DNA from: Ligustrum vulgare
Lineage: Eukaryota; Streptophyta; Magnoliopsida; Lamiales; Oleaceae
NCBI GenBank assembly: GCA_963555705.1
Contig: OY743171.1
Location: forward strand, 15,871,352 to 15,935,351
DNA length: 64,000 bases
Reading direction: 5' to 3'
Shown: piece by piece, positions 14,536 to 58,666 of the stretch
How positions within the stretch are numbered: position 1 is the first letter of the stretch
Layout: every line of letters begins with the position of its first letter
Notes under the pieces: generated by a model
What the model saw: the letters and a program-made list of their open reading frames with translations, nothing else
Told to the model about the DNA's origin: nothing
The model's database searches: none
Made by a program: the position numbers and the translations under genes

Positions 14536-15195
14536 TCAATCCTATCTTATGTTATGCTTTCAAAAGAAATTATGCTTGGCATAATTAAAATGTTTTTATA
14601 AGTATATGGTTTTCAAAGAGCTGTTTTCAAAGAGCTATTTTCAAAGAGCCTATGATTTGTAAAATATGTCCCGTGCTGTAATGCACAATATGAGTTTTAT
14701 CAAGAGCAGTTTTATAAAGAAGCTCTATCAATGCCCGTTTTATAAAGAGCCGGGATTTGTGTGTTTAATCATCTTATAAATTAAATTAATTTGCGATGAG
14801 TCTACTGAGTATTTCCCCCATGAAATACTCACCCTACTTTTTAACAGTTTTGCAGATTTCGGAGACGGTGGCGAGCGATGAATGATGTTGGCAATAATCG
14901 TTGAACGGTTGAAAGTTTGACGTTAATGATTTCCGTATTTTCCAAACAATCGAATAATTTAGAGAAGTTCATTTATTTGAGAAATTATGATATTGGCAAT
15001 TTCTTTACAATATTAATGGTTCGATTTACTATTTCAAATGGTTTCATAAATGTTTTCAATTTTAGCGGCCATTACAGTTTATTTAATGTTGCCAAAAATG
15101 AATTTCAATTATTTCTTCCGCAAAAAAATATTATTCGAAAAATTTAGACAGAAAATGACGTAGTGAATCGGGTATACGGAACTCGGGGCGCTACA

Positions 15196-27198: not shown

Positions 27199-27203
27199 AT
27201 ATA

Positions 27204-28476: not shown

Positions 28477-28487
28477 TGGTATCAGAG
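28477..28487 (+). other. Element A primer binding site
   Basis: TGGTATCAGAG starts two bases after the LTR and pairs with initiator-Met tRNA. It sets the element's transcription direction as plus, opposite to the two genes it carries. Confidence 0.88.
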
Positions 28488-33149: not shown

Positions 33150-35003
33150 TGTAGCAACCAAGAATTTTTACGCGATTAATAATTATTTTAAAATCGTGTC
33201 GCTACTATTTCACCCATTTTTATTAAGTAACGCCGTGACGTATTCGTATAGCCAAGTCAAGAAATAATCGAGATCGTTCGATTTTAAATTAAATTCCGAA
33301 TTTCTAAAAATATCTCCATTCTCTTGATTTAAAGTATATTAAGTCCAAGTACTTAATTCAATGTTATCCCAATATTTATTTATACAAAAATTATTTTTAT
33401 TATTGAAATTAAGAAAATATATGCAAGCATGAGAGGTTCCATTATATATAATAATTATGAGAATCTTAATTTAATAATATGGAAAAGTATATGAATGAAT
33501 TATATACTCCATTATATATAATCATGAAGAGCATAATATTTGTATAAATATGGAAAAGTATATGAATGATTGATAAGACTCCATTATATGTAATCATGAA
33601 GAGCATAATATTTGTATAAATATGGAAAAGTATATGAATGATTTATATACTCCATTATATATAATCATGAAGAGCATAATAATTGTATAAATATGGAAAA
33701 GTATATGAATGATTGATAGACTCCATTATATATAATCATGAAGAGCATATTATTTGTATAAATATGGAAAAGTATATGAATGATTGATAAGACTCCATTA
33801 TATGTAATCATGAAGAGCATAATATTTGTATAAATATGAAAAAGTATATGAATGATTTATATACTCCATTATATATAATCATGAAGAGCATAATAATTGT
33901 ATAAATATGGAAAAGTATATGAATGATTGATAGACTCCATTATATATAATCATGAAGAGCATATTATTTGTATAAATATGGAAAAGTATATGAATGGTGC
34001 TTTACTTTAAGAAAATGATGTGTTAAAATTAATAGAATTGAATGATTATGTTTACAATATGCCAACTTTATACATCTATTTAAACCCATCTCTTTTACAC
34101 ACAACTCTACACATATACACTTATTTCCAATCTCTTGACAAAATCCACAAGTAAGAGAAATTCAAGGTGGTCAAGAAAGTTTTGGTCCATTTACTACTAC
34201 ACTTCATTTTAATCTTTTAAAAGGTAAGTATATCTTATGTTTTTATGAAAAGTAAGTATGTTTTTATGAAAGGTAAATATACCTTATGTTTTTATGAAAA
34301 GTAAGTATGTTTTTATGAAAGGTATTACTTTATGTTTTTATGAAAAGTAAGTATGTTTTTATGAAAGGTAAATACACCTTATGTTTTTAAGAAAAGTAAG
34401 TATGTTTTTATGAAAAGTAAAATACATTATGTTTTTAAGAAAAGTAAGTATGTTTTTATGAAAAGTAAATATACCTTATGTTTTTACGAAAATGTTTGGA
34501 TCATTGCTATGAAATCAATCTCACAAGATTTCTATGGGTCCCATATGATATGTTTATGATTATGCTAAGGGGACCGGAGTTTAGTAGCGCTACACATAAG
34601 AATTCTTGTCATCTAAGTTCGGTAAAACTCTTGTGTCTCTCTATGTTTATGAGGATTTCGATCCTATCCTATGTTATGATGAAAATGATCCATATGCTTT
34701 CGAAAGAAAATTATGCTTGGTATACTTACTGGGATTTTATAAATCTCACTCCACGATATTTACCATTTTCAGATAATTGAAGGTTCGAGGCGGTCAACAT
34801 GGAAGTGGAAAAAGTGGTTAAGATTGATGAGATAATTATGTTGAACTTTATGTAAGAAAATTATGTTCTATTTTTATTCACAAATTAAATTATGGGATTC
34901 TAATTATTCTTTTGAATAATTTTACATTACTATTTAAGTCTCGATAATATGATATGAGTCACTTTTAGTGGCACTCGAATGGTCGAGAATTCGGGTCGTC
35001 ACA
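33150..35003 (+). repeat. Element A 3' LTR
   Basis: 1854 bp, TGTAGCAACC...GGGTCGTCACA, matching the split left LTR with about ten substitutions. It holds about seven 71-72-bp tandem units (33480-33990) and the GTAAGTATGTTTTTATGAAA repeats (34220-34490). Followed by TSD GAGAG. Confidence 0.93.
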
Positions 35004-35008
35004 GAGAG

Positions 35009-36160
35009 GTTGATCCCAATTAGGGATATAACCAAGTAGTGGGAGAAGAGGAGAATGGTAGATGAGAAGGTTGATGCCTTCAGTGCAAGGCTTATGGCTG
35101 TGGGTTTGTGAAACCCTTCTCGCCAATTGCCATGCGAAAGCTTGCTTGGATCTTTTATCCATTGTCATTCATTGTGAAAATGAGGTACGACAGATGGATG
35201 TCAAGAAGTTGTTTCTTGAATGCATCTTGAGGAAATCATTTACAAAGTTTAACCTGATGAGTTCATACTAGAGACCATGAAAGTAAAGTTCATGACTTAC
35301 AAGTTTCCAACTTTGGATTTGGGTATTTGTTCAAGATATGGAACATAGAATTTGATCGAACGATTGTGATACATGTTCTTGATCAAAATCTTGATATATC
35401 TTAAGTATACTCGTGTATACAGAAAGATGAGACAGTTTTCATGACTATTTATTTGAATGAAACTCTACTTATGTGTGAGAGTATCTTCATTAAATAGTAG
35501 TTGGCTCCATCAATTAGACTTGAAGGCCTTGTAGATGACTGTCTATTTTTTTCTAGACATCCGTACTTTTCGGAGTGGGAGAAAAATGAAATAGAATAGT
35601 CTCAAGTTTCATGTAGTAATAAGATACTATATATATTTGCAATATTGAATTCTTGAAAGGAATAATGTTATTTGTGGACTTTATCTATCTTATGAGTATT
35701 CTCCTAAGACTCATGGTAAGATAGAGAAGGTTCCTTATGCTCCGGCTATAGGAAGCCTTACTTTGCACTAGATAGGTCATATCTTATGCTGGAGATATTG
35801 TTGGTGATTATTAGTTTGATCCAGGATCAGATCATTGAATAGAGGTAAAGCATATACTGAATCGTTTTCGAAAAATGAGTAAATATTTGCTTATCTATTC
35901 AGTTTGTGATCTGATGATTAAAACTAATTAAGATCTGATTTGACTAGGACTCTTGAGAGTCGTCAAAATTGGAATATAACTGGGAGATAATGTGGTTAAT
36001 TGGTTGGGTATAACACAATCTTGGATTGTTTGTTATACAACCGTGACTCACATCGAAATGCGTCATCATCTTGGTTGAGAACATAATCATTAATGTAATG
36101 ATGATGTTGACAAGATGGATGATTTGATTTTCATGTATACTCTAAGGGCAAGTGGGAGAT
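35009..36160 (+). pseudogene. Ty1/copia reverse transcriptase/RNase H relic of element D
   Basis: Broken frames show the copia RT sequence around 35185-35240: QMDVKKLFLECILRKSF (the 'QMDVKTAFLNGxLEExIYM' motif; the region just after it is also shifted). Further on there is APAIGSLT-like wording near 35745 (the 'YxSAVGSLMYA' site). It ends with the purine tract AAGGGCAAGTGGGAGAT before the 3' LTR. Many stops and frameshifts; not functional. Confidence 0.65.
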
Positions 36161-37572
36161 TGTTGGAATTATATATGCCCATAGAGTATAATTCATGACA
36201 TTTAAAATAAAATATTAATTGATTGTATTAATATGAAGTTGCATTTGTCCACGGGTCGATTTGATATTACAAATTGAGTGTTTCAGTTGCTAAACACAGA
36301 AAGATTCAATTTGTGATTCGATCTAAAGTTAATGTTCACGATCAGTAAATAAATATGGACAATTTATTTTGATAAGATCGTCTCGATTTTATTAAAGTCT
36401 ATCTTTGACTTTGGTAATAAAATTGAGAGTACGTTTGGAACGTATTAGACGGGACCACGTGAAATTAATTTGTGACATTGACCATACAAATTTAATTTCA
36501 CTTGATTATCGTACGTGGGACCTTAATCCTAATCGGATAATGGACTTCGATTACTAACTTGAAGCTCTTTGAGGTATCAATGGGTGAGATCAAATTGCTG
36601 ATCAATATCTCGGTACTTTGGGAATTAAAGTGAACTAACGAGGAACATATATTCGTATTATGGAATCCGTCACCTTTTAGGTATGATCATAATCTCACTG
36701 GTTCTTCTAGTGGACAGTTGAATCTGAGCTCAGTAATTCGACAGTGACTGTTGAATTCTATGATGTGATGGGATCACATCGAACTGTCAGATAGAAGATG
36801 AGAGTTGAGAATTTATGAATATTCGGAGAAGGGCATTTTGGTCATTTTAACTTGCTCCGAATATTCGAGTTGATCGACGGGGGTAACATGTAAGAACGAT
36901 AAGTCAGATGATATAATTATTGATTAATTGTTTCAGTAATTTCAATTTTACTAAGAGTGCAATCTCGTTCTTTTAGTGGAATAAAACGTGATTAATAAAT
37001 TAATTTTGACTGATCAAGAGTTGATCGGGTCATAATTAATTTATTGGAGCTTAGTTTAATTGGGTCCGATCAGGTTCCCTCGGTGGCTTCACTATAATGG
37101 GTTTATACAGGCTTATTACTTGTATTGGGTTGTGCAGAAATGGGCCTGGGTTATGGTACTAGGCCTGGTAGGGTTTTGGAGTGTAAAGAGGTTACAAATA
37201 GTCTCCAAAGACTATTTTTCTTAACCTAATTGGAAAAGTGGCGAGACACACTAAAGTGTGTAGTGTGTGTTTCCTCTTTACAAAGAAACTCTAATCCTAG
37301 TTTAACCTTGGTCTTGAGAAAGGTGGTCCACACACCTGCACAGCTGCCATTGGAGAACACCGAGGAAAGCTTGAGGGTTTGAAGCTTTGGTGAAATCAAG
37401 AAGCAGCGAAAAAAGATTATTGTAAAGCACGCTACAAGGGTAATATCTCTTTCTTTTTGTGTCCACAAAATTATTTATTCTAAGTTGAATACATAGAACA
37501 GAAAATCCTGTAACGGGATGATCTATCACAAGAAATCAATTTTTGTAAGTAGAACAACCTGGGTTCCCAACA
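36161..37572 (+). repeat. Element D 3' LTR
   Basis: 1412 bp, TGTTGGAATT...TTCCCAACA, followed by TSD CCATT and by the resumed CACTA reading frame. Confidence 0.93.
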
Positions 37573-42012: not shown

Positions 42013-42661
42013 TGTAAGGATTTAAGGCTCAGAATCAAACCACAAAGAACAAGAAAAAGTGTTAACCACAAAGAATCAAAACACTTTATTCAGAAACCAT
42101 AAAAATTACGGAAACAAATCCAAAACCCAGAAATATACATAAAACTTCCAGAAATCAAAGAACTCGTACAAAGAACCACAGAGATCAACTGAGTTGCAGA
42201 AAATTCTGCCAAAACTCATAAAAATGTATACTGATTATCAGAAAATCAGTATCAACCACTATCACTAAGAATATACAAACAATATCTAAGAATTTCTGGA
42301 AGAAGTATGAAGAAATATGAAAGATCGGATGAGGCGATGAAAAATCGCCTACACAGAGAGAGAGAGAGAGAGTACTAGGGTTTGAGTGAAAAGGAAGCGT
42401 CTGGATCAGAATGGATGCAGTCAGAACGTCTCCTTTCCTTTTCATTACAAATGGATGACTCAGATTCATCAGAACATATCAATGGCTGAGATGAGTCCAA
42501 ACCAGGTTATAAAGGTCCGGCTGAAGTGTAATGGTCCGGCTGAAGTGTAATGTATCCGGACTTGGGCCTCAAATTAAAATTGTGTAACATGGGCTCTAAA
42601 GTTGGACTGAATATTGGGCTCAATACCGGTCCATTTCCTTAATCAGATCAATTTCCCAACA
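42013..42661 (-). repeat. Element F 3' LTR
   Basis: 649 bp on the left because the element is minus-oriented. It has a (GA)n run at 42355-42372 and ends at CCCAACA (42661), next to the purine tract. Confidence 0.92.
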
Positions 42662-42715
42662 ATCTCCACCTCAATTGAGCTGGATTCCAGTATCTGAAAA
42701 CGTAGTAAATAAGTA

Positions 42716-45666
42716 TCAAGATTCAACCAAATTTAAAAAACTCAATGCATCTTTAAACTTATTAATAGGAATGATCTTAGTTCCTGCATCTGCAGGATTA
42801 ACCTGAGTTGGAATTTTAACAAGTTTCACAATGCCTTTATCAATAATGTCTCTAATGAAATGGAATTTAACATCAATATGTTTTGACCTATTGTGAAAAA
42901 CAGGATTTTTACACAGATGTAATGCACTCATGCTATCAGTACATATTTCAACTTCAGAGTCAGTAATGCAACCAATTTCAGATAATAAACCCTTTAACCA
43001 TAGGAATTCCTTAACAACATCTGTAGCAGCTATATATTCTGCCTCAGTTGATGATGAGGCAACCAATTTTTGTAGCTGGGATTTCCAGCTAATACAGGAA
43101 TAATTTAAAGTAAAGAAATAAGAGGATGTTGATTTCCTGTTATCAACATTTCCAGCAAAATCTGAATCAACAAAACCTTTAAGTTTAAAATCATTTTTGG
43201 TTTTAGAAAACACTAGACTAAGTCTAGCAGAACCTTTCAAATATTTCAAAAGACATTTCATAGCTTCCTAGTGCAATTCACCTGGATTGCTCATAAATCT
43301 GCTTAAAACACTTACTGCAAATGCAATATCAGGTCTGGTACAAACCATTAAATACATGACAGATCCAACTGCATTAGAATATGGCACATTTTTCATTCTA
43401 AGTAATTCATCATCAGACTTAGGACAATGCTCAACAGATAATTTAAAATGTGCAGGCAAAGGCAAAGACACAGATTTGGATTCAGATAAACAAAATTGTT
43501 TAAAACCTTTTCTATGTAATGTTTCTGGTTTAAAAACAGTTTCCCAGATTGTCTATTCCTAAAAATATCCATTCCAAGTATTCTTTTAGCATTTCCTATA
43601 TCTTTCATTTCAAATTCAGAATGCAGTTTATCTTTAAGAATATTTATATCATGCATACTAGGTCCAGCAATAAGCATGTCATCCACATATAAAAGCAAGT
43701 AAATGAAATCAGTTTTACCAAGTTTAAAATAAAAACAGGAATCATATTTACTTTTCTGAAAATTTAGGCTTTGGATATAGGAATCAAATCTCTTATATCA
43801 CTGCCTAGGAGCTTGTTTTAAGCCATACAAAGATTTTTTCAACAAACAAACTAAATCAGAATTTCATCCTTTTTCAAAACCTTTAGGTTGATGCATATAA
43901 ATTGTTTCATCTAAAGAACCATAAAGGAAAGCAGTTTTCACATCCATTTGCTCAAGTTCTAAATCAAATTGTGCAACCAAAGCAAATAGAATTTTGATAG
44001 AGGTGTATTTAACAACAGGTGAAAATATTTCATTAAAATCAATTCCTTCTTTTTGAGAAAAACCCTTGGCTACAAGTCTAGCCTTGTACTTAGGTTTCAT
44101 GCCCTTAGATTCACTTTCTTTCAGTTTAAAAATCCATTTACAGTCAATTATCCTTTTATTTACAGGTCTATTGACTAAAATCCAAGTACCATTTTTCAAA
44201 AGTGACTCCATTTCATCTTGCATAGCTGCAAGCCAAAGTTTGGAATCCTTAGAAGACACAGCTTCTTCAAAAGATTGTGGTTCAAACAAAATAGGATCAA
44301 AATATGTGAATGCAGACACAAAATCAGGATCCTCAAACCTAGGAGGAGGTCTAATCTCTCTTCTAGGTCTATCCCTAGCTAATTGATAATTTTCTAAGTT
44401 AGTTTCAGCTTCAGGGATATCAACAGGTTGTGGTTCTATGTCTGCAGGTTCATGTTCAGGTTCAGTAATGACATTTGGAGACTGTGGGGGTTGTTCCACC
44501 TGAAACTGAGTACTGGGCAGGCCATTTTCATCACCTAAATGGTCTGTACTCAGCTCATAAGCGATAAAGTCTTTTTCTTTAACAGGATCAATCAATTTTT
44601 CATTTTTGCAAGGAAAATAATTTTCATTAAAGACCACAGACCTACTCAAAATGACCATGTAACCTCCCTGTTCCCTGACCCATAACCTATAGCCCTTGAC
44701 TCCTTCTCCATACCCAAGAAAAACACATTTTAAAGACCTGGAGTCAAGTTTAGTTTCAGAATGGTGTGAGTAGGCAGCACAACCAAAAACTTTTAATTTT
44801 GAAAAATTAGGAAGATAATTATTTCAGATTTGATCTGGAATCTTAAAATCAATAGCACTACAGGGAGAAAGATTTATCAAATAAGATGCAGTTTTGACTG
44901 CTTCACCCCAAATTTTTTTTGGCAAATTGGAATCAAGTAAAAGACACCTAGTTCTTTCAAGAAGTGTTCTATTCATCCTTTCAGTAACCCCATTTTGCTG
45001 TGGACTGTAGGCAACAGTCCTATACCTAAGAATACTTAAGGTGCTACAAAAAGAATCAAACTCTTGGTTACAAAATTCTAAACCATTATCAGTTCTAATA
45101 GTTTTGACTCTTTTTCCTATCAAATTTTGAACTAATGTAATCTAGTTTTTGAAAACAAACACAGTGGCATCCTTAGTTTTTAACAAGTGCACCCAGATTT
45201 TCCTAGAAAAGTCATCCACTATAAGAAGAAAATATCTGAAACCTGAAACTGAACCCACAGGAGCAGGACCCCACAAATCAGCATGCACATATTCAAGCAC
45301 ATCAGAAGATTTATGAATACTTTTACCAAATGAACTCTTCTTTTGTTTACCTAACACACATTTTTTACAGAAGTCAAGTTTATGCAACACATCATTACCA
45401 AATACACCTTTGGTTTCAAGTAACTTAAGTCCTTTTTGACCTATGTGTCCTAATCTTTTATACCATAACTCATTTTTATTCAAGTCAGACATAGCATTAA
45501 AAGACTTAGCATAAACAGGCAAGGCATTCAGCATATAGATCCCATTTATTTTAGGAGTACTCATAATCAGGCATTTATTTTTGAAAATACTCAAAAAACC
45601 ATTTTGCATTCTAATCTCAAAAGATTCAGAATCTAGAACACCAAGATAAATTAAGTTCCTTTTCAA
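42716..45666 (-). pseudogene. Element F pol: integrase, reverse transcriptase and RNase H (several stops)
   Basis: Minus-strand reading. GAG-pre-integrase LWYKRLGHIGQKG with FCKKCVLGK (near 45450-45340). Integrase core with VHADLWGP, IRTDNGLEF and a YSPQQNGVTERMNRT block (D,D,E). Then the RT: QMDVKTAFLYGSLDETIYM (about 43900) and the YVDD box LLLYVDDMLIAG (about 43670). RNase H has GFVDSDFAGNVDNRKST, SSTEAEYIA and HIDVKFHFIRD, ending at the stop at 42716-42718. In-frame stops lie near 45141, 44823, 43863, 43798 and 43268, and a frameshift is near 43560-43480. Otherwise the copia frame is continuous, so inactivation looks fairly recent. These enzymes copy and insert the element; this copy cannot make a full polyprotein. 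Confidence 0.88.
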
Positions 45667-46059
45667 ATCAGGAACATATCTAGTTTTATTTAAAGTAAGA
45701 GTTTTGTTATTATCAAGTTGTAACTAAACCTTTCCAATACCTTTCACATCACATGAAATATTATTGCCAAGTTTCATAGAACCAAAGCAATTATCACTGA
45801 AATTAACAAACATATCATTTTCAGGACACATGTGAAAGGTGCATCCAGAATCTAAAATCCATTCATTCTTATTATCTGACTCAGTAGTGACATAAACCAC
45901 CCCATTATTATTATTATCTTACACTGCAGCCTCAGTCTGATTACTGATTCCCTGTTCATTTTTCCTTTTAAAACAATATTTAATATGATGTCCAGGTTGG
46001 CCACAATAAAAGCAAATTCTAGGTGGTTTATCTATATTTGCAGTACCAGCATTATTATC
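45667..46059 (-). pseudogene. Element F gag zinc knuckle and aspartic protease
   Basis: The minus strand reads CFYCGQPGHHIKYC (CX2CX4HX4C zinc knuckle, about 46020-45970), then WILDSGCTFHMCP (about 45865-45825), the Ty1/copia aspartic protease active-site block. The VKGIGKV...RYVPDLKRNLIYLG block runs into the integrase. Stops near 46059, 45920 and 45725 break it. Confidence 0.8.
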
Positions 46060-46890
46060 CTATGTTCTAAAATTGTTCTGGTTTCTGAAATTATTATAAT
46101 TTTTAGCATTATTATCTTGATTTCTGAAACCAGACTGACTTCTAAAGTTACTGTCTCTAGGCCTATTGAAATTGCCCTTATCTTGAAAATTTCCCTTTAC
46201 AAGCTTGTTATTCCAATCCCTATTGTTGTTAGAATTATTCCAATTTTTATTGAAATTAGTTCCAGCTTTATTCAGCCTAGGAGAGTTCTTCTTCCTAGAG
46301 GTACCTACCACATTATAGGCTTCCTTAGGATTATTTTTAAACTCTAACTCTTTATTCTTAAGGGATGTGTGAACAATCTCAGTGGTCAACTTCTGTCCCC
46401 CATACTCTAAAGCATTCCTCAAATCTTTAAACTTATCCCCCGTAGCATTCAATAAACAAACAACTTTTTGTTCATCAGTAAGTTTTTCATCACAGTTTAA
46501 TAAACTTTGTGTGATCTTAGTAAACCTACTTATGTTCTCTTCTATATCCTTAGATGGATCAAATTTAAAAGAGAAATATTATTTCCAGAGAAAACACTTA
46601 TCAAGCAAGGACACAATATCATAAAGTTCTTCCAACCTATCCCACAATTCCATTGTAGTTTTAGTCTTGCCTACTTGTCTAATGACATTATCAGATAAGT
46701 GTAAAAATAAAGTGCTCCAAGCAGTTTCATCCATTTCAAGTTGTTTGTCCTGTGGGGTATCAAGGGGCCAGGATTTATCAATAGCCTTAGCACATTTCAT
46801 TTGAAGTAGTAAAGCTCGCATTTTTTGGCTCCAGAGGTTGAAATCCCCTTTGTCATTCCATATTTCAACATCTACCTTGACAGTAGCCAT
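46060..46890 (-). pseudogene. Element F gag (UBN2/Retrotran_gag-type capsid), one internal stop
   Basis: Starts MATVKVDVEIWNDKGDFNLW at about 46890; an ATG 15 bases upstream is also in frame. It shows the copia gag pattern: 'W...M..LL', ALL, DETAWSTLFLHLSD, and TMELWDRLEELY. A stop near 46578 interrupts it; the second half (46452-46060) is N/R/K-rich with GFRNQDNNAKN-type repeats before the zinc knuckle. Length and order match copia Gag. Confidence 0.85.
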
Positions 46891-47945
46891 TGAAATAATG
46901 ACCAAGATTTTGAAAATATTTCAAGTTATGGAGCTTTAGTAGTTCAAAGAACAAGTAATCAGGCAGAAGACAATAATGCAGGTCACAATCACAAAGTAAG
47001 ACAATAACACAAAGTCAAGAATTTGTATTCAAGAATGTTCACTAATGTTCAGAACACAGTATTCAGTAAACAAAGTAATCAAGGTGATCACAATTCAACA
47101 ATTCAATTACTCAATCAAGAAATTACACAAAACAGTATACAAATAAAAGCTGTCCTTCCAGTATATCCCTCAACCTATACTGGATATTCCCACACTCCCT
47201 CAGATTCCCGGATTCTCAATGAAATCCTGGACAAAGGTAAGCTAGGGGTCCAAGTTATAGGCTTCAACGGAGAGATTTGGGAGAGAACAGGAAATTTGAA
47301 GAAATCAAATTTACAGCATAAGACTGCAGTAATTGAATAATATCACCTGATTGCAGATTTTTATTAAGCTATTGCAGCTTCCACAAGGAATCAGAATCCC
47401 AGAAGTCCAGGGCCACAAAGTATCAATATCAATTATCCACCACAAAGAATTAATCCACAAAGAAATATCACCAGTATCCACCACGAAGGATCAATCACCA
47501 AGAACAATGTAGGATCTATATGTGACCAGAATATTTTATAGAAAATATTCTGTGTCTCAAGATCCTCAGTAATGTGGACTCAGAAATAAGATCCAGATAC
47601 ACAAAATTTCAGAAACCCTAAATTTAAAATAGGTTTCAGTAAGAATAGAATCCACGAAGTTTTAAAAGATTTTATATAAAAATCTTTAAAAGAAATTTTG
47701 AATCTGAAAGATTTTAAACAAAATTTTCAGAAATCAAAAGTGATATACTGTTAGGGTTTGTAAAAAACGACTTAAGAAAATAAAAAATTTCTTAAAAGTT
47801 TAAACGGTTCAGAAACCCTAAAATCATTTGAAGAAGTAAGATCCGTTTCCAGAAAACCCTATATCCAAAAAATAAATTTCTGGATCTACCAGATCTGAGT
47901 CAAATCCACCGGGTTTTTCAAAGAACCCTAAGGCTCTGATACCAC
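46891..47945 (-). other. Element F 5' leader and primer binding site
   Basis: About 1.05 kb of untranslated leader between the LTR and gag. At 47932-47944 the minus strand reads TGGTATCAGAGCC, the initiator-Met tRNA primer site, one base from the LTR. No conserved gene in the leader. Confidence 0.8.
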
Positions 47946-48471
47946 TGTAAGGATTTAAGACTCAGAATCAAATCACAAAGAACAAGAACAAGTATTAACC
48001 ACAAATAATCAAAACACTTTATTCAGAAACCATAAAAATTACAGAAACAAATCCAAAACCCAGAAATATACATAAAACTTCCAGAAATCAAAGAACTCGT
48101 ACAAAGAACCACAAAGATCAACTGAGTTGCAGAAAATTCTACCAAAACTCATAAAAATGTATACTGATTATCAGAAAATCAGTATCAACCACTATCACTA
48201 AGAATATACAAACAATATCTAAGAATTTCTGGAAGAAGTATGAAGAAATATGAAAGATCGGATGAGGCGATGAAAAATCGCCTACACAGAGAGAGAGTAT
48301 TAGGGTTTGAGTGAAAAGGAAGCGTCTGGATCAGAATGGATGCAGTCAGAACGTCTCCTTTCCTTTTGATTACAAATGGACGGCTCAGATTCATCAGATC
48401 AATGGCTGAGATGAGTCCGGACCAGGTTATAAAGGTCCGACTGAAGTGTAATGGTCCGACTGAAGTGTAAT
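47946..48471 (-). repeat. Element F 5' LTR, part 1 (interrupted by element B)
   Basis: Matches 42013-42540. The remaining 110 bp lie at 58667-58776 after element B and its GTAAT duplication. Confidence 0.92.
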
Positions 48472-51400
48472 TGTAGCGCCCCGAGTTCCGTATACCCGAT
48501 TCACTACGTCATTTTCTGTCTAAATTTTTCGAATAATATTTTTGCGGAAGAAATAATTGAAATTCATTTTTGGCAACATTAAATAAACTGTAATGGCCGC
48601 TAAAATTGAAAACATTTATGAAACCATTTGAAATAGTAAATCGAACCATTAATATTGTAAAGAAATTGCCAATATCATAATTTCTCAAATAAATGAACTT
48701 CTCTAAATTATTCGATTGTTTGGAAAATACGGAAATCATTAACGTCAAACTTTCAACCGTTCAACGATTATTGCCACCATCATTCATCGCTCGCCACCGT
48801 CTCCGCAATCTGCAAAACTGTTAAAAAGTAGGGTGAGTATTTCATGGGGGAAATACTCAGTAGACTCATCGCGAATTAATTTAATTTATAAGATGATTAA
48901 ACACATAAATCCCGGCTCTTTATAAAACGGGCATTGATAGAGCTTCTTTATAAAATTGCTCTTGATAAAACTCATATTGTGCATTACAGCACGGGACATA
49001 TTTTGCAAATCATAGGCTCTTTGAAAACAGCTCTTTGAAAACCATATACTTATAAAAACATTTTAATTATGCCAAGCATAATTTCTTTTGAAAGCATAAC
49101 ATAAGATAGGATTGAAATCCTCATAAACATAAATAGACACAAGAACTTTACCGAACTTAGGTGGCAAGAATTCTTATGCAGTAAAATCATAATAACAGTA
49201 AGTTTTCATCATAACATAGGATAAGATCGAAATCCTCATAAATATAAGAATTTTACCGAACTTAGGTGGTAAGAATTCTTATGTAGTAAGTATACCAAGC
49301 ATAATTTTCTGAAATTCATAGGGATCAATTGCATCATAACATAAGATAGGATCGAAATCCTCATAAACATATGCGACAGGAATTTTACCGAACTTAGGTG
49401 GTAAATCCTCATAAACATATGGAAAGATAGGAATTTTACCGAACTTCGTGGCAAATCCTCATAAACATAGGAGACACAAGAATGTTACCGAACTTAGGTG
49501 GCAAGAATTCTTATGTGTAGCGCTACTAAAACTCCGGTCCCCTTAACATATCATAACTTATCATATGGGACCCAAAACAATCTTGGTAGATTGATTTCAT
49601 AGCAATGATCCAAAAAAACATTTTCGTGAAGCATAGGGTATACTTACTTTTCGTAAAAACATAAAGTATATTTTCTTTTCATAAAAACATACTTACTTTT
49701 CATAACAACATAAGGTATATTTACCTTTCATAAAAACATACTTGTTTTTCTTAAAAATTGACTTTCACAAGTCACATGACATTCATATGAAATCATAATT
49801 TAAATCAATTAATAAGTGCGAGTCTACCTCAAATCCGACGAGTGCAAAGTTGAGCGGGAATGACTTCTTTAAATTCTCCGTACGCTTCGTCTTAGCCAAT
49901 AAGTCACTTTAGTATATCGAATATATAGTTCAAAATGATAAATTATAATTTGAGGACTAAAATTGATGTTTTGAAAGTTGAGGGACTAAAATGAATACTT
50001 TTGAAAGTTCAGGGACTAAAATAGATACTTTGAAAGTTGAGGGACTAAAATGTAAATCTTTTTAAAACTTGGGCTTAAAAGTAAATCAGCAGGGACTGAA
50101 ATAATAGATTTTAAAAATGAAGGGCTGATTAAGACTCATTTAAAACTTAAGGGCTGAAATTAAAAAGATTTAAAGCTGAAAGGACTGAATTGAAACAAAT
50201 TAAAACTTCAGGACTAAAGTTGCAAATTTCCGAAAGTTTATAATATTTAAAATAATCAGATTCTCATTTCTCTCTCTCACTTTACTGTCTCTCGAAATCG
50301 AACCAGAGAGAAGAAAGTTGCGATCCACGTCGCTGGCGGCAATTTGCCGGTGAAATGCCCTGGTCGAGCGGCGGCGGTCAGAGTATGGTGCGAGTGTGAG
50401 GAAAATAGAGATGTTTTGGGTGGTTGGACGTGCAAAACCGAGGCAAATAACGAGGTTGTTGTTTGGTGATTGCCCGACGATACTCCATTCAAAATAGGTT
50501 AGTGACTGAGGTGTGTATCTGGGTTTCACTTAATTCTTGTTTTGGTTTTGATTTGGGTTCGATTTGAGCTGGTTGGAGGTGGCTGATTCGAAAATGGGTG
50601 ATGAGTTGGTGGTGGTTGAAATGGTGAAGAAGGTAGCGATGGCATTGGGTGTTGACTCGTGGCTGCAAGCGGCGGCTGTAGTGTTTGGCAGCTAGTTGAT
50701 GGTCGGCGAACTGGTGGTGAAAGGGCCGTAAATGGTTCGACAGTGGTGATGTTCATGATTTTGGCGTTGGCAGTGTTGTGGTTGAAAAATTGAGATGGCT
50801 ATGGTGTATGAAATTTGATTTCTTGTGGTGCAGTGTTAAATTGGATGATGGAGATTCTGCAGTGAGGTTTGGATTGTGATTTCAGACAGTTGGCAGTGAA
50901 TTTCCGGTGGTGATAAATTCTTAGTAGTGAATTGGTGATGGAGGTGATGATCACGCAGAGAGTTGAGATTTGCAGGCGTGCTGGGAATTGAAAATGACAA
51001 AGAAGGCTGGTGGTTAGACTGATGATTCCAAACATGAAGGTGGGATGAAGGTATCTTTAAAGGAGAAAAGAAAGGAAAAGAAGAAGATTAATGGAGAATA
51101 AAAATCATTATGTTTAGTAGACACATGGGGTAGGATTGAATTGTGATAGCTTTGATTAATTGGTAGTGGTGTTCTTTGTTAGGTATAATAATAATAATGA
51201 TGATAGTTTGTATGTGCAGGACGGAAGAATGCAAATTGAGTTTGATGTGGGTGAAGATATTGATTATTCAAATGATGGTGATATAGTGGATTGAAAGTGT
51301 GATAGGTGGAGTTGGTGAGGATGTGATGAGCATGATGAAGAACATATAAAATTAGAGGAAGAGATGTAGATAGTTAGGTATTAAGAAAAGTGGGAAAACA

Positions 51401-51772
51401 TGGGGAATAATTAGTTGGTTTGTTGATGATGATGTTTTTGGACTGAAAATACATTTGAGAATAAATAGATTTTGAGATAAAATCGAATTACGTATTTGGA
51501 CTTGAAATAATTTGAATAAGGAAAATTGAGATATTTTAATAAATTTGGAATTCAAAATGATTTTGAAAATAATACTTTGAATAAATAATTAAAATAACAT
51601 AATTTTAGAAATTCGAATTTTAATTTAAAATCGAACAAATTCGATATTTCTTGACTTGGCTAGACGAATCCGTCGCGGCGTTAATTTCAAAACAATGAGT
51701 GAAATAGTAGCGACACAATTTTCTAAATATTAAAATAATTATAAAATTGCGTAAAAATTCTGGGTCGCTATA
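48472..51772 (-). repeat. Element B 3' LTR
   Basis: 3301 bp. It contains the inverted 'CCGAACTTAGGTGG' repeat set (49140-49510), the 'gggactaaaatgaatac' repeats (49950-50220) and a G-rich strand tract (about 50270-51330), all collinear with LTR C read in reverse. Confidence 0.93.
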
Positions 51773-52504
51773 ATCTTACCCCCTTAAAATAATTTCGTCC
51801 TCGAAATTAAACTTACTTGATCTTATGATTTCTGAATACTTAATCAGAATCTCTTCTTCTTCTTCTCTTATGTAGCATCATTGCTACCATATTTAACCCA
51901 ACCATATTTAACCAACTGGACTCTGACTAAATGCATCACTTTGTTTTCTCAAGAGCATGGACTTTTTCTATAGACATATGTGTCTACTCAAAAATTCTTC
52001 TGAATCAAAATGAAATTTCCCAATCGTATGTGATATTTCACCATATCTTGTAGTATTCATGTAACTTGTCACTTATCATCGTATCATGTGACCTCAAATA
52101 TTCGTATATATCTCTAAAATTTCAACAAATCTTTACTGATATATCATATCATAAAAAAATTTCCTTTCTTCTTATCATCGAATATTTCCAAAATAATCAA
52201 AGAATTACCTGAATATTCTCTCTACGTAATATACCCAATAACATATCAACATAATATCATCAACTTATCTTTCCAATATTTGTAACCCAAAATTCAGTAA
52301 ACAAATATCTCCAAAAACTAAGATTCTATACTTAAATGTCACCATATTTCCTGCAAAGTATTTCTTTCACTTGTATATACGTATGAATTCTGATTCAATA
52401 CGGTACTCATTTTACTTTCCACGTATCATCACATTATACCAAGATTATCATTATTATAACAAAATATCAGTACCCATAATCCAAGAAAAATATTCCAAAT
52501 CTCA
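51773..52504 (-). other. Element B internal 3' region, no gene
   Basis: Begins with the complement of the polypurine tract (ATCTTACCCCCTTAAAATAATTTCGTCCTCGAAATT). It matches, in reverse, 32400-33149 of A and about 16760-17695 of C. Non-coding. Confidence 0.75.
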
Positions 52505-52638
52505 AATCCCATCATCAAATCTTTCTTTTATCAAGAAAGTGAACGGCGCATTACTTCTTGTCTCCTCTTTTCATTAAAATAATCCTGCGCTTTCTTGCTG
52601 GTCACAACATCACGCGGATTCACTCAGATCCTTTACGC

Positions 52639-52648
52639 TTTTAAATAG
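52639..52648 (+). promoter_or_regulatory. A/T-rich TATA-like box before the zinc-finger gene (element B)
   Basis: TTTTAAATAG lies 34-43 bases before the ATG at 52682 and is conserved in A (TTTTAAATAGTTCATGCTGGG). It resembles the CTTTAAATAG box before LOG. The distance to the ATG is short, so a promoter role is only suggested. Confidence 0.35.
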
Positions 52649-52681
52649 TTCATGCTGGGAAGAGGTTAGATTCATCAAACA

Positions 52682-53233
52682 ATGGATATCATCCTTTCTA
52701 ACATTCGCAAGTATTATTCCAATCTTCCTATGAATGATCTGAGAAAGATCTATAGAATAAGACTCGAAAGGTTGAGGTTGCTGATGACTCATGGTATTCC
52801 AGAAGATGTTCGCTGGTTGATCGAAGCAAAGGTTCGACTATCTGGTGAATTACCATCAACATTTCCAAAGCACATGCCTGGTTTAGGCAAAAGCACGTTT
52901 GCAAAGAAACGAAGAGCAAAAAGATTGGGTGGTTGCTACAAATGTGCTCGATGGAACTGTAATACTCGTTGCAAATCAGTAGGATATTCTTCTACTAATC
53001 GGGATGATAAAATCGAATTCATAAAGGGTGGACTGAGTAAGGAGTCTTTGGATGATATTCGACTGACTCTTGAGACGCACCCAAGTGGTTATGTGCAACG
53101 TGAACTTCTCTCCTTATACGCTCAGTTTAACGAGGACAAAAATCGTTATAGTCTCCAAAATATAATAGCAAAAGATCCTGTTTGCCAGTCTGTTTTACAA
53201 AATGAGGCTTCTGGCAGTTCAGCAATGATATAA
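52682..53233 (+). CDS. Carlavirus-NABP-like cysteine-rich zinc-finger protein, carried by element B
   Basis: 183 codons, intact and intronless. The ATG at 52682 is the first in frame here. Cysteines 85, 88, 93 and 97 and the preceding basic stretch (residues 68-82) are unchanged from the A copy. There are 12 amino-acid differences, 29 nucleotides in all by my count. 27 of them fall in the first 112 codons. Retention of length, frame and all four finger cysteines in two diverged carriers argues for a functional protein. In carlaviruses the related protein sits near the genome 3' end and binds nucleic acid; a nuclear or RNA-binding role is inferred here. The gene runs antisense to element B. 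Stop codon TAA at 53231-53233, and 392 bp separate it from LOG. Confidence 0.65.
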   Translation: MDIILSNIRKYYSNLPMNDLRKIYRIRLERLRLLMTHGIPEDVRWLIEAKVRLSGELPSTFPKHMPGLGKSTFAKKRRAKRLGGCYKCARWNCNTRCKSVGYSSTNRDDKIEFIKGGLSKESLDDIRLTLETHPSGYVQRELLSLYAQFNEDKNRYSLQNIIAKDPVCQSVLQNEASGSSAMI

Positions 53234-53298
53234 GGTAAATCTTTTTAAAATATTTTGCTGTTTTCTTTCACGCGTTTTGGAAATAAAAAAAAAAAATA

Positions 53299-53424
53299 TT
53301 TTCCTTTCTCGAGTTTTTGATAAAGCTGGAAATAAATATATTTTCCTTTTCTCGAGGTTTGATAAAGCTGGAAATAAATATATTTTCCTTTTCTCGAGGT
53401 TTGATAAAGCTGGAAATAAATATA
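53299..53424 (+). repeat. Three 42-bp tandem repeats between the two cassette genes (element B)
   Basis: Three head-to-tail units of TTTTCCTTTTCTCGAGGTTTGATAAAGCTGGAAATAAATATA (53299-53340, 53341-53382, 53383-53424); the second and third are identical. Element A has a single unit (about 31567-31608), so the expansion is specific to B. It lies in the LOG promoter region and could alter its activity. Confidence 0.9.
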
Positions 53425-53541
53425 TTTAATCGCCGAAAGGTGACAGCCTCGATACGATAAAAATATTCAAAAGTGGGCTGATTTTGTCAAAAGTAAATCT
53501 TTACTTTTTCAGAATCAATCAAAAACAGTAAATTTTTCCGG

Positions 53542-53551
53542 CTTTAAATAG
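53542..53551 (+). promoter_or_regulatory. TATA-like box upstream of LOG (element B)
   Basis: CTTTAAATAG, 75 bases before the ATG at 53626, identical in the A copy. Its position would allow a 5' UTR of about 45-50 bases (AAATCACATCTTCTTCGTAAG...). Prediction only. Confidence 0.45.
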
Positions 53552-53625
53552 TCAAACATATTTCATAGTTCAGGCATCCCAAAATCACATCTTCTTCGTA
53601 AGTTTTCCTTTCTTTACTATCAAAG

Positions 53626-54279
53626 ATGGAAGCACCAAAACTTCGACAGATCAAAACTATTTGTGTATTTTGTGGATCAAAAGTGGGGAAAGGCTTCGGT
53701 TATCTAGAAGCGGCTGTAGATCTTGGAAAGAAACTGGGGGAAAAAGGTATCACTCTTGTATATGGGGGTGGTAGCAGTGGTCTAATGGGTTGTGTTTCCC
53801 AATCTGCTCTTGCAGAGAAATCAAAAGTAATCGGTGTCATACCTGTCCCTTTGGTAGATGTTGCAGGCAAAACACGAGGGCATGAAGTTCAAACCTTATC
53901 CATCCATGAACGCATAACTTGTATGCTATATGGTTCTGATGCCTTTATAGCCCTGCCCGGAGGTTTTGGTACCTTAGAAGAAATCTTTAACATTACCTCG
54001 TGGGCTCAACTAGATCTCCATACTAAGCCTATTGGGCTTCTGAATGTTAACAATTTCTTTGATGGTTTGTTAACCTTTCTTGATTATGCTGTGGAACAGG
54101 GATTCATCTCTCCATTTTCCAGAAGGCTTCTTATTTCTGCTCCTACTATTGATGAACTACTGGATAAGCTGCAGTCATATATCTCAATACAAGATCCAGC
54201 AGGGGTTAAGATAGATTGGTCGCAAGGAAGGGGAATCAAGCGAAAATGGAGTCCGGTTAATGTAAATTTAACTCTGTGA
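53626..54279 (+). CDS. LOG-like: LOG-type cytokinin riboside 5'-monophosphate phosphoribohydrolase, carried by element B
   Basis: 217 codons, intact and intronless, ending TGA at 54277-54279. Same motifs as the A copy: CVFCGS (13-18), GGGSSGLMG (47-55), Arg96, PGGFGTLEE (111-119) and Glu119. It would convert cytokinin nucleotides to free bases in one step in the cytosol. Compared with A there are about 9 nucleotide differences, 7 silent and 2 replacements (G26 and P210 here). That is the pattern expected under purifying selection, although numbers are small. The residues after about 190 (PAGVKIDWSQGRGIKRKW...) form a basic tail that I do not recognise from classic LOGs. Because element B is young and its LTRs nearly identical, this is a recently mobilised gene copy. 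Confidence 0.9.
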   Translation: MEAPKLRQIKTICVFCGSKVGKGFGYLEAAVDLGKKLGEKGITLVYGGGSSGLMGCVSQSALAEKSKVIGVIPVPLVDVAGKTRGHEVQTLSIHERITCMLYGSDAFIALPGGFGTLEEIFNITSWAQLDLHTKPIGLLNVNNFFDGLLTFLDYAVEQGFISPFSRRLLISAPTIDELLDKLQSYISIQDPAGVKIDWSQGRGIKRKWSPVNVNLTL

Positions 54280-54290
54280 ATCTTAGAATA

Positions 54291-54503
54291 GGTGGGGGTA
54301 GAGTACGGAGTATTCTCACTCTCGAGACACCCCTCCATTTACTAGGATTTCCTTAATGTTTAAATCTTGTGTGTATCTCAAAAGTTCCAGGTGGTAGATT
54401 ACGGAGTATTCTTACTCTCGAAACACACCTCTTTGAAGGTTTCTTTATTTCCTCAAAAGATCAGAGGTGGTAGGATACGGCTACTCCGGAAACACATCTC
54501 TCA
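54291..54503 (+). repeat. Threefold repeat downstream of LOG (element B)
   Basis: Three units starting GGTGG(T/G)AG and containing TACGGAGTATTCT(C/T)ACTCTCGA(G/A)ACACC at 54291-54337, 54390-54434 and 54466-54503 (the third is shorter and changed to TACGGCTACTCCGGAAACAC). It is conserved with element A, so it predates their split. It may shape the 3' UTR. Confidence 0.75.
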
Positions 54504-54599
54504 TTTTGAGGATTATCCCATGCTTCTCTCGTTTGCTTTTGTGTGTTTCATGTATTTCCTTTCCAGTGTGACTCTTGTGTGTTCTCCTTATGAGAAAAT

Positions 54600-54605
54600 A
54601 ATAAA
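54600..54605 (+). terminator. AATAAA poly(A) signal after LOG (element B)
   Basis: AATAAA about 320 bases after the LOG stop codon, conserved in A. Together with the TATA-like boxes it marks the cassette as its own transcription unit. Confidence 0.55.
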
Positions 54606-54645
54606 ATCTCTGCTATCATCTACTAAATCTCGTTTGTGATGTAAA

Positions 54646-55360
54646 TGAACTTGCATGTCTAACCTTAATTCCTTTAGTAGATGCTTATCATATCATGCTC
54701 TTAATTCCAAACGATAAAAATTCTAGGCAGAGTTTCCCTTGTAATTTGGACTTATCCAAACCATAAGCATACTTCATAACTCACAATAATAAATAACTCC
54801 ACATTTAATCACAACGATAAAAAAATATTGAAAACGATTCCAATACTTCAATATCATCAAAATATCTCATAATTCAATTCATAATTCCTCAACATAACAA
54901 TTTCAAATCATATTTTTCAATATCACAATATCACTTCCTTCCATACCTTAATTGGCTCAAAAGACTTCTCATAATTATAAATATATACCATAAATCATAT
55001 TCCCTTATGCTCAACACTCGTTTTCTTTCTTAAAAAAAATTTCTCATAATCATACATTAAAGCATATAAGTTATGACAAAGCATAACAACATCATTATTT
55101 TCGAAAGATACATTCTTATTTCTCATAAATCATAAGTATCCGAAATACTCTTCATTCTTTCTCATAATTCAATAAAATGAGTATTCGAAATACTGAAATA
55201 ACTTTAAACATCATAAACTTCTTTACCTCGGAGTTGGTGGAACGAATGATGGCAGTGGCAATCTTCATCAATAAAATTTTATAATGGAAAATATTTCTTG
55301 AAAATTCTTTTTGAAAATTTTTCCAGTCTACAGAAACGCAGACTAGCTCTGATACCAACT
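54646..55360 (-). other. Element B internal 5' region with primer binding site
   Basis: Matches the internal starts of C (15196-16031) and A in reverse. Ends at the tRNA-iMet site (GCTCTGATACCA, 55346-55357), three bases from the LTR. Non-coding; short open frames only. Confidence 0.8.
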
Positions 55361-58300
55361 TGTAGCGCCCCGAGTTCCGTATACCCGATTCACTACGTCA
55401 TTTTCTGTCTAAATTTTTCGAATAATATTTTTGCGGAAGAAATAATTGAAATTCATTTTTGGCAACATTAAATAAACTGTAATGGCCGCTAAAATTGAAA
55501 ACATTTATGAAACCATTTGAAATAGTAAATCGAACCATTAATATTGTAAAGAAATTGCCAATATCATAATTTCTCAAATAAATGAACTTCTCTAAATTAT
55601 TCGATTGTTTGGAAAATACGGAAATCATTAACGTCAAACTTTCAACCGTTCAACGATTATTGCCACCATCATTCATCGCTCGCCACCGTCTCCGCAATCT
55701 GCAAAACTGTTAAAAAGTAGGGTGAGTATTTCATGGGGGAAATACTCAGTAGACTCATCGCGAATTAATTTAATTTATAAGATGATTAAACACATAAATC
55801 CCGGCTCTTTATAAAACGGGCATTGATAGAGCTTCTTTATAAAACTGCTCTTGATAAAACTCATATTGTGCATTACAGCACGGGACATATTTTGCAAATC
55901 ATAGGCTCTTTGAAAACAGCTCTTTGAAAACCATATACTTATAAAAACATTTTAATTATGCCAAGCATAATTTCTTTTGAAAGCATAACATAAGATAGGA
56001 TTGAAATCCTCATAAACATAAATAGACACAAGAACTTTACCGAACTTAGGTGGCAAGAATTCTTATGCAGTAAAATCATAATAACAGTAAGTTTTCATCA
56101 TAACATAGGATAAGATCGAAATCCTCATAAATATAAGAATTTTACCGAACTTAGGTGGTAAGAATTCTTATGTAGTAAGTATACCAAGCATAATTTTCTG
56201 AAATTCATAGGGATCAATTGCATCATAACATAAGATAGGATCGAAATCCTCATAAACATATGCGACAGGAATTTTACCGAACTTAGGTGGTAAATCCTCA
56301 TAAACATATGGAAAGATAGAAATTTTACCGAACTTCGTGGCAAATCCTCATAAACATAGGAGACACAAGAATGTTACCGAACTTAGGTGGCAAGAATTCT
56401 TATGTGTAGCGCTACTAAAACTCCGGTCCCCTTAACATATCATAACTTATCATATGGGACCCAAAACAATCTTGGTAGATTGATTTCATAGCAATGATCC
56501 AAAAAAACATTTTCGTGAAGCATAGGGTATACTTACTTTTCGTAAAAACATAAAGTATATTTTCTTTTCATAAAAACATACTTACTTTTCATAACAACAT
56601 AAGGTATATTTACCTTTCATAAAAACATACTTGTTTTTCTTAAAAATTGACTTTCACAAGTCACATGACATTCATATGAAATCATAATTTAAATCAATTA
56701 ATAAGTGCGAGTCTACCTCAAATCCGACGAGTGCAAAGTTGAGCGGGAATGACTTCTTTAAATTCTCCGTACGCTTCGTCTTAGCCAATAAGTCACTTTA
56801 GTATATCGAATATATAGTTCAAAATGATAAATTATAATTTGAGGACTAAAATTGATGTTTTGAAAGTTGAGGGACTAAAATGAATACTTTTGAAAGTTCA
56901 GGGACTAAAATAGATACTTTGAAAGTTGAGGGACTAAAATGTAAATCTTTTTAAAACTTGGGCTTAAAAGTAAATCAGCAGGGACTGAAATAATAGATTT
57001 TAAAAATGAAGGGCTGATTAAGACTCATTTAAAACTTAAGGGCTGAAATTAAAAAGATTTAAAGCTGAAAGGACTGAATTGAAACAAATTAAAACTTCAG
57101 GACTAAAGTTGCAAATTTCCGAAAGTTTATAATATTTAAAATAATCAGATTCTCATTTCTCTCTCTCACTTTACTGTCTCTCGAAATCGAACCAGAGAGA
57201 AGAAAGTTGCGATCCACGTCGCTGGCGGCAATTTGCCGGTGAAATGCCCTGGTCGAGCGGCGGCGGTCAGAGTATGGTGCGAGTGTGAGGAAAATAGAGA
57301 TGTTTTGGGTGGTTGGACGTGCAAAACCGAGGCAAATAACGAGGTTGTTGTTTGGTGATTGCCCGACGATACTCCATTCAAAATAGGTTAGTGACTGAGG
57401 TGTGTATCTGGGTTTCACTTAATTCTTGTTTTGGTTTTGATTTGGGTTCGATTTGAGCTGGTTGGAGGTGGCTGATTCGAAAATGGGTGATGAGTTGGTG
57501 GTGGTTGAAATGGTGAAGAAGGTAGCGATGGCATTGGGTGTTGACTCGTGGCTGCAAGCGGCGGCTGTAGTGTTTGGCAGCTAGTTGATGGTCGGCGAAC
57601 TGGTGGTGAAAGGGCCGTAAATGGTTCGACAGTGGTGATGTTCATGATTTTGGCGTTGGCAGTGTTGTGGTTGAAAAATTGAGATGGCTATGGTGTATGA
57701 AATTTGATTTCTTGTGGTGCAGTGTTAAATTGGATGATGGAGATTCTGCAGTGAGGTTTGGATTGTGATTTCAGACAGTTGGCAGTGAATTTCCGGTGGT
57801 GATAAATTCTTAGTAGTGAATTGGTGATGGAGGTGATGATCATGCAGAGAGTTGAGATTTGCAGGCGTGCTGGGAATTGAAAATGACAAAGAAGGCTGGT
57901 GGTTAGACTGATGATTCCAAACATGAAGGTGGGATGAAGGTATCTTTAAAGGAGAAAAGAAAGGAAAAGAAGAAGATTAATGGAGAATAAAAATCATTAT
58001 GTTTAGTAGACACATGGGGTAGGATTGAATTGTGATAGCTTTGATTAATTGGTAGTGGTGTTCTTTGTTAGGTATAATAATAATAATGATGATAGTTTGT
58101 ATGTGCAGGACGGAAGAATGCAAATTGAGTTTGATGTGGGTGAAGATATTGATTATTCAAATGATGGTGATATAGTGGATTGAAAGTGTGATAGGTGGAG
58201 TTGGTGAGGATGTGATGAGCATGATGAAGAACATATAAAATTAGAGGAAGAGATGTAGATAGTTAGGTATTAAGAAAAGTGGGAAAACATGGGGAATAAT

Positions 58301-58661
58301 TAGTTGGTTTGTTGATGATGATGTTTTTGGACTGAAAATACATTTGAGAATAAATAGATTTTGAGATAAAATCGAATTACGTATTTGGACTTGAAATAAT
58401 TTGAATAAGGAAAATTGAGATATTTTAATAAATTTGGAATTCAAAATGATTTTGAAAATAATACTTTGAATAAATAATTAAAATAACATAATTTTAGAAA
58501 TTCGAATTTTAATTTAAAATCGAACAAATTCGATATTTCTTGACTTGGCTAGACGAATCCGTCGCGGCGTTAATTTCAAAACAATGAGTGAAATAGTAGC
58601 GACACAATTTTCTAAATATTAAAATAATTATAAAATTGCGTAAAAATTCTGGGTCGCTATA
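55361..58661 (-). repeat. Element B 5' LTR
   Basis: 3301 bp, matching 48472-51772 with about three substitutions (near 55846, 56321 and 57842). Followed by TSD GTAAT and the rest of the element F LTR. Confidence 0.93.
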
Positions 58662-58666
58662 GTAAT

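Follow-up and report, generated by a model that had tools for sequence, protein, structure and literature searches.

An NABP-LOG gene pair carried antisense in two non-autonomous LTR retrotransposons of Ligustrum vulgare: a possible adaptor derived from a hormone enzyme

Introduction

Why would two long terminal repeat (LTR) retrotransposons in which no gag or pol gene is found keep two intact protein genes? The question is raised by a stretch of 64,000 nucleotides from Ligustrum vulgare (assembly GCA_963555705.1, contig OY743171.1, positions 15,871,352 to 15,935,351), which is referred to here as the window. Two LTR elements of the window, A and B, each contain an intact open reading frame (ORF) for a relative of carlavirus nucleic-acid-binding proteins (NABP) followed, in the same order, by an intact ORF for a protein of the LONELY GUY (LOG) family. 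The answer tentatively preferred here, with a little less than an even chance of being correct, is that the LOG-derived protein would be a nuclear adaptor that recruits the corepressor TOPLESS by means of a short C-terminal tail, whereas NABP would be a nucleic-acid binder that blunts silencing, both being encoded in a cassette antisense to the element.

The gene pair and its conservation between copies

The four genes are located as follows:
52682 to 53233, + strand: NABP ORF of element B, 183 amino acids (aa), relative of Viral_NABP and Carla_C4, antisense to the element.
53626 to 54279, + strand: LOG-derived ORF of element B, 217 aa, antisense to the element.
31678 to 32229, - strand: NABP ORF of element A, whose protein is 93% identical to that of B (the mechanical ORF start is 32277; the coordinates 31678-32229 are used here).
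30728 to 31381, - strand: LOG-derived ORF of element A, whose protein is 99% identical to that of B.

Each element has one full copy of each gene, and nothing further was detected in the window at E ≤1 (tblastn, window proteins as queries). The identities that an earlier note on this DNA had given to the two proteins, a LOG-family member and a carlavirus-type protein, are confirmed by Pfam matches above the curated cut-offs: Lysine_decarbox (the LOG domain) at 1.3e-33 in A and B alike, Viral_NABP at 3.9e-7 (B) and 1.1e-7 (A), and Carla_C4 at 4.5e-6 (B) and 7.6e-5 (A).

Both genes are under purifying selection between the A and B copies. NABP shows about 14.7 synonymous and 14.3 nonsynonymous changes, with a ratio of nonsynonymous to synonymous rates (dN/dS) of 0.257 (Fisher p 2.7e-4, rounded counts), and LOG shows 7 and 2 changes, with a dN/dS of 0.088 (Fisher p 9.8e-4, rounded counts). 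Segmental duplication of A and B is ruled out, since their LTRs differ in sequence and length (approximately 1.86 kb against 3.3 kb) and each element has its own target site duplication (TSD) and its own young LTR pair; the internal regions are only partly similar.

The C-terminal tail of the LOG-derived protein

Relatives were drawn from the top 120 rows per protein search, out of 346 significant proteins for NABP, 7230 for LOG and 150 for a fused gene model from Orobanche; three internally duplicated or chimeric models (P0122, P0123 and P0165) were left out of the LOG counts. The C-termini of the LOG rows are alike: a short variable stretch and a basic cluster follow the last conserved Trp, and the sequence typically closes with L-D/N-L-x-L-x-L. 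Among the new traits of the family this feature is the best conserved. It was overlooked in the earlier note, together with the antisense orientation of the pair, and has the following form in element B:
54232 to 54276, + strand: C-terminal tail GIKRKWSPVNVNLTL, a basic cluster plus a relaxed motif VNLTL resembling the ethylene-responsive element binding factor-associated amphiphilic repression (EAR) motif, from the comparison of C-termini.

A terminal hydrophobic-x-hydrophobic-x-L is present in 101 of the 119 LOG rows and the strict LxLxL, which is the EAR consensus (PMC9956375), in 92 of them. When redundancy is reduced (minimum length 205 aa, identity to any retained row below 80%), the relaxed tail remains in 34/41 rows and the strict form in 32/41; the maxima obtained with shuffled tails were 3 and 2, respectively. 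The tail, with its parts resembling a nuclear localisation signal (NLS) and an EAR motif, is absent from both Arabidopsis host LOGs compared. It likely combines an NLS-like basic cluster with a TOPLESS-recruiting EAR motif. The foreign protein HaRxL21 is reported to recruit TOPLESS through a C-terminal LMLTL; according to the same source, possession of an EAR motif does not suffice in every case (PMC7446885).

Fold and active site

The core of the structural model of the LOG-derived protein has the LOG fold and its C-terminal tail is disordered. The LOG of Corynebacterium is described as a dimer in which i) catalysis is proposed to depend on Arg99 and Glu122, ii) the adenine is held by Met96, Lys100 and Glu121, and iii) the prenyl group is thought to be held by Met96, His97, Lys100, Glu125 and Trp129; alanine changes of the residues binding adenosine monophosphate (AMP), except S19A, nearly abolish its activity (PMC4979012).

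In the earlier note the LOG was read as an enzyme that activates cytokinin and so stimulates cell division, with the inference that the element may make its host cells divide where it replicates. Both window copies do keep the PGGFGTLEE motif and the catalytic residues as Arg96 and Glu119, equivalent to Arg99 and Glu122, which persist in 113 and 125 of 127 LOG rows, and the low dN/dS of LOG also agrees with an active enzyme. Besides, the activity of plant LOGs is reported to track neither phylogeny nor shared site residues, so residues alone do not decide it (PMC11593424). On the other hand, the adenine and prenyl site has been altered: Met96, Lys100 and Glu125 are replaced by Ile93, Ile97 and Asn122 in the window, and Met96 is conserved in 101 of the 127 rows, Lys100 in 6 and Glu125 in 5. 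Lys100 and Glu125 are reported to lie in the substrate site (PMC4979012). Taken with a lineage from Orobanche which has lost the catalytic Arg and mostly carries the tail (see below), these changes give the enzymatic proposal no support, and it is considered quite unlikely.

In four rows, from Xanthoceras and Acer, Lys100 and Glu125 are retained and the EAR tail is lacking, the Acer row being devoid of Arg99. In a midpoint-rooted LOG tree of 46 rows (rows shorter than 180 aa, except P0292L, and near-duplicates removed), which has a very long branch for P0259 and only two host LOGs on the host side, the two of these tail-less rows that were included cluster with the host LOGs (99/91); P0161, with intact site and tail, is placed next (97/91). 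A plausible order of events would be capture of the gene, gain of the tail and then loss of the site.

Relatives in other plants

The NABP search gave 346 proteins from 400 candidates, and its best 120 include rows from Orobanche, Populus, Xanthoceras and Acer; Citrus also has NABP relatives. The LOG search gave 7230 from 7542, with Reevesia, Populus, Diplodiscus, Xanthoceras and Diospyros among the best 120. When the fused Orobanche model was used as query, 22 of the best 120 of 150 rows contained both domains, 20 of them from three Orobanche species and two from Citrus, and NABP precedes LOG in all 22 of these gene models. Both halves are recognisable by eye in three further rows (P0250 from Orobanche, P0289 from Citrus and P0292 from Acer). 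The listed NABP and LOG relatives also have five equal-sized contigs of at least 1.4 kb in common, against a mean of 0.3 expected, equal size being no proof of identity; for contigs of all sizes the nine pairs found are a weak signal (mean 2.5, maximum 10). The NABP-LOG pair, judged by the NABP relatives and the fused gene models, is widespread. The earlier note had named circumstances that would speak against its claim; as it turned out, segmental duplication does not account for the pair, relatives of the zinc-finger ORF occur in viral families and many relatives are intact in length.

These data also bear on the idea that the two genes are passengers that hitchhike on the element, the LxLxL being due to chance or to structure. 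The relaxed form of the tail in the window agrees with it. Against it stand the open frames and purifying selection, a tail count far above that of shuffled tails, and the same gene order in the Orobanche and Citrus models, and it is regarded as highly improbable.

Orobanche contributes 31 rows with a LOG part, 29 of which form one lineage (among the representatives, P0259 stands for 24 sequences and P0243 for 46). In this lineage the catalytic Arg is replaced by Asn or Ser in all 27 readable rows, and PGGFGTLEE is altered to forms such as PGGYDTLNE. The matching tail is present in 21 of the 29 rows, and most of the other eight end early or in unrelated sequence. This Arg-less lineage is the best evidence that the tail and not cytokinin release would be the feature kept. 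With the tailed Orobanche rows without Arg and the tail-less Xanthoceras and Acer rows that keep Lys100 and Glu125, enzyme and adaptor functions would be separable.

The zinc-finger protein

NABP has the layout of the Viral_NABP family and of the cysteine-rich proteins (CRPs) of carlaviruses, that is, a basic cluster followed by a Cys4 motif; the likeness is one of layout. In element B these parts are:
52904 to 52924, + strand: basic cluster KKRRAKR, NABP residues 75-81, nearly invariant among relatives.
52934 to 52972, + strand: Cys4 zinc-finger-like motif C85-x2-C88-x4-C93-x3-C97, from the alignment of relatives.

The KKRRAK cluster, the Cys4 motif and stretches beyond the zinc finger are nearly invariant, and at E ≤0.01 the Viral_NABP profile matches 29 and Carla_C4 28 of 31 family rows. 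CRPs of the carlavirus type are reported to be silencing suppressors, and that of chrysanthemum virus B a transcription factor (PMC12172455). NABP is predicted to bind nucleic acid and to blunt silencing. A profile search of PDB returned non-significant rows only (best E 0.41), and no NABP relatives were found in the viral contigs of IMG/VR in three scans; a LOG scan of IMG/VR gave 28 loci with 24-42% identity, which were taken as unrelated LOG genes.

It could be supposed that NABP is the selected part, protecting the element from RNA silencing in the way that carlavirus CRPs are reported to protect viruses (PMC12172455), with its LOG partner as a helper or stabiliser. In favour of this proposal are the profile matches and the fact that the basic cluster and the Cys4 motif are strongly conserved. 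In addition, the top two structural matches in BFVD, neither of them significant, come from the plant viruses Fig latent virus 1 and Grapevine Kizil Sapak virus, and both bear the annotation RNA silencing suppressor. However, the dN/dS between A and B is lower for LOG than for NABP, which makes LOG unlikely to be a mere helper, and NABP as the only selected part is judged unlikely.

Antisense orientation and candidate promoters

The earlier note was right in describing two LTR elements with TSDs in which no gag or pol is found and which carry the same intact gene pair in the same order. The structural features of element B are:
48467 to 48471, unstranded: left TSD GTAAT, in flanking sequence.
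48472 to 51772, - strand: 3' LTR, with 3 differences in 3301 bp from the 5' LTR (the element lies on the - strand).
51773 to 51790, - strand: polypurine tract TTTTAAGGGGGTAAGA.
55347 to 55358, - strand: primer binding site (PBS) TGGTATCAGAG(C).
55361 to 58661, - strand: 5' LTR, from the LTR pair comparison.
58662 to 58666, unstranded: right TSD GTAAT, in flanking sequence.

Those of element A are:
11107 to 11111, unstranded: left TSD GAGAG, in flanking sequence.
11112 to 11696, + strand: first part of the 5' LTR, 4 differences in 585 from the 3' LTR.
27200 to 28474, + strand: second part of the 5' LTR, past a nested array, 5 differences in 1275 from the 3' LTR.
28477 to 28487, + strand: PBS TGGTATCAGAG.
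33133 to 33149, + strand: polypurine tract TTTTAAGGGGGTAAGTT.
33150 to 35003, + strand: 3' LTR, from the LTR pair comparison.
35004 to 35008, unstranded: right TSD GAGAG, in flanking sequence.

The PBS TGGTATCAGAG of both elements is presumably of the initiator-Met type. Only 9 of 1860 sites differ within the LTR pair of A and 3 of 3301 within that of B, so both insertions look recent. The only ATG-started ORFs of at least 90 aa in element B are NABP and LOG, and no other stop-to-stop frame in it exceeds 111 aa; no gag or pol was found there. None was found in element A either, where the Pfam scan covered two further ORFs (27949-28251 and 28863-29342), neither of them with a match. Reverse transcriptase was not found within A or B, and the same Pfam scan recovered RVT_2 at 1.1e-33 in a neighbouring copia ORF as positive control. 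With an LTR pair, TSD, PBS and polypurine tract in each and no gag or pol found, A and B are non-autonomous LTR retrotransposons.

The PBS lies on the + strand and the genes on the - strand in A, and the reverse is found in B; in both elements the cassette is therefore antisense. Of the two genes, NABP lies closer to the 3' LTR, the elements having no pol as a reference point. As protein genes that are antisense to the element and conserved between copies, the two resemble the antisense extra ORFs (aORF-3R). The LTR transcript of the element could not encode NABP or LOG, which would therefore need promoters of their own. Candidate sites in element B are:
52640 to 52648, + strand: TATA-like TTTAAATAG, 42 bp upstream of the NABP start, in a block identical between A and B.
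53543 to 53551, + strand: TATA-like TTTAAATAG, 83 bp upstream of the LOG start, a sequence match.

The same sequence is found on the gene strand 42-43 bp upstream of both NABP starts and 83 bp upstream of both LOG starts, and these are four of the six matches in the window, where about 1.7 per strand are expected. The NABP site lies in a 35-bp block that is identical in A and B, against 82% identity over the surrounding 100-bp stretch. We infer that these TATA-like blocks are the promoters of NABP and LOG.

The antisense placement in both elements, and the double-stranded RNA and regulatory roles suggested for antisense ORFs (PMC7264820), would also fit a control of copy number, in which the module represses its own element or relatives, either via corepressors at the LTRs or via an antisense transcript that leads to double-stranded RNA. 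Nevertheless, the coding constraint speaks against a role of the RNA only, and self-repression would be hard to sustain in an expanding family; this explanation is considered very unlikely.

Proposed mechanism and known systems

According to the preferred explanation, NABP and LOG would each be transcribed from their own promoter, antisense to the element. The LOG-derived protein would enter the nucleus and recruit host TOPLESS corepressors by its basic-plus-EAR-like tail, and dimers of the LOG fold would expose at least two tails, while the zinc-finger NABP would bind nucleic acid and dampen silencing. The gag and pol proteins would be supplied by an autonomous relative. The pair would thus be an accessory module, similar to the regulatory modules of retroviruses, shifting host transcription or silencing to the benefit of the element.

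Several observations weigh against this explanation. The host control for the tail consists of two LOGs only. The window tail reads K-R-K and then V-N-V-N-L-T-L, with Val in place of the first Leu of the motif, and is hence relaxed and not a strict LxLxL. The tail is missing in 18 of the 119 rows, some of them shortened and others true variants (KKRKLDH, KKRRLA). A second Orobanche lineage (P0265 and P0268), in which the Arg is kept, has AFLSL at its end; this does not fit the tail and speaks against a strict tail rule. The catalytic Arg and Glu persist in the majority of the 127 rows, which suggests continuing selection for some nucleotide chemistry. As for NABP, its structure model is weak (predicted local distance difference test score, pLDDT, of 68) and its viral fold matches are not significant, the best having an E of 0.34 (BFVD) and none reaching 0.001. 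Finally, the antisense orientation was observed in two elements only, A and B.

A broader proposal, about which we are more doubtful, is that a captured hormone enzyme became a TOPLESS-docking nuclear adaptor and, joined to a relative of carlavirus-type suppressors, forms an antisense module that reprograms host repression and has spread through the eudicots, the NABP gene possibly having been exchanged between retroelements and flexiviruses. If so, the pair would be comparable to the regulatory genes of retroviruses, and one host-manipulation gene would be common to plant RNA viruses and retrotransposons.

Steinbauerova (2011) reportedly described Ty3/gypsy elements with a LOG/YgdH domain in Citrus and Populus. 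LOG (YgdH) domains in Ty3/gypsy elements of these two genera, which are also among the relatives found here, are reported by Alvarado-Marchena (2022, PMC9289625); the available text of that source does not report an NABP partner, an NLS/EAR tail or an altered substrate site. In the open-access literature (subscription papers being mostly outside the search) no report was found of an NABP in a retrotransposon, of the NABP-LOG pair or of an EAR tail on a LOG. Published precedents exist for a LOG domain in gypsy elements of plants and for extra ORFs in antisense, and apparently not for the pair, the NABP in a retrotransposon or the tail.

The antisense extra ORFs of Retand and other elements (TRP28 and others) are likewise described as conserved antisense protein genes with predicted nucleic-acid binding and a proposed regulatory role (PMC11963269, PMC7264820), but, as far as these sources go, they belong to other protein families and their elements mostly have gag-pol. 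A 2020 review describes antisense ORFs as having no similarity to other transposable elements or viruses (PMC7264820), whereas NABP has a viral-family match. The role of such genes in plant retrotransposons is presented there as an open question (PMC7264820, PMC11963269). The NABP-LOG pair is a useful case in this respect: its domains are recognisable, natural variants exist, and for the short conserved tail a candidate partner, TOPLESS, can be named.

NABP shares with the CRPs of carlaviruses and allexiviruses the Cys-rich motif and basic cluster, at scores above the Pfam cut-offs, but it has approximately 183 aa, its N- and C-terminal parts being long and conserved, and it is encoded not by a betaflexivirus genome but by a plant LTR element, in which LOG is the one other long ORF. 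Most family rows have the fold, the PGGxGTxxE motif and the catalytic Arg and Glu of plant LONELY GUY enzymes, but nearly all lack Lys100 and Glu125 and they carry the basic-plus-LxLxL tail. HaRxL21 is also described as a foreign protein with a C-terminal LxLxL that is active in plant cells (PMC7446885); here the carrier is a genomic transposable element and TOPLESS binding is predicted from sequence.

Other features of the window

Within element A, the ORF at 28863-29342 is in the sense direction, has 159 aa and is without Pfam match. A tandem repeat of about 41 bp at 53290-53425, between NABP and LOG, has about three copies in B and one in A. Past the LOG stop, at 54290-54503, there are three diverged copies of a unit (AGGTGG...ACGGAGTATTCT...ACTCTCG...CACCTC), conserved in A; it gave no Rfam match (single folding, no control), and no match at the Rfam gathering threshold was found anywhere in the window.

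The array nested in the 5' LTR of element A, at 11697-27199, has a tandem LTR-internal-LTR-internal-LTR arrangement, with three LTRs of about 3.5 kb that are approximately 99.9% identical (BLAST) and two internal parts of 2.5 kb, whose ends resemble those of A and B; the cassette is absent from it. A direct repeat at 2067-3479 and 36160-37572 (97.9% identical) resembles the two LTRs of an outer element, inside which A and its array are nested. Directly adjoining the insertion site of B, a Ty1/copia element lies on the - strand at 42013-48471, with matches to RVT_2 and gag_pre-integrs.

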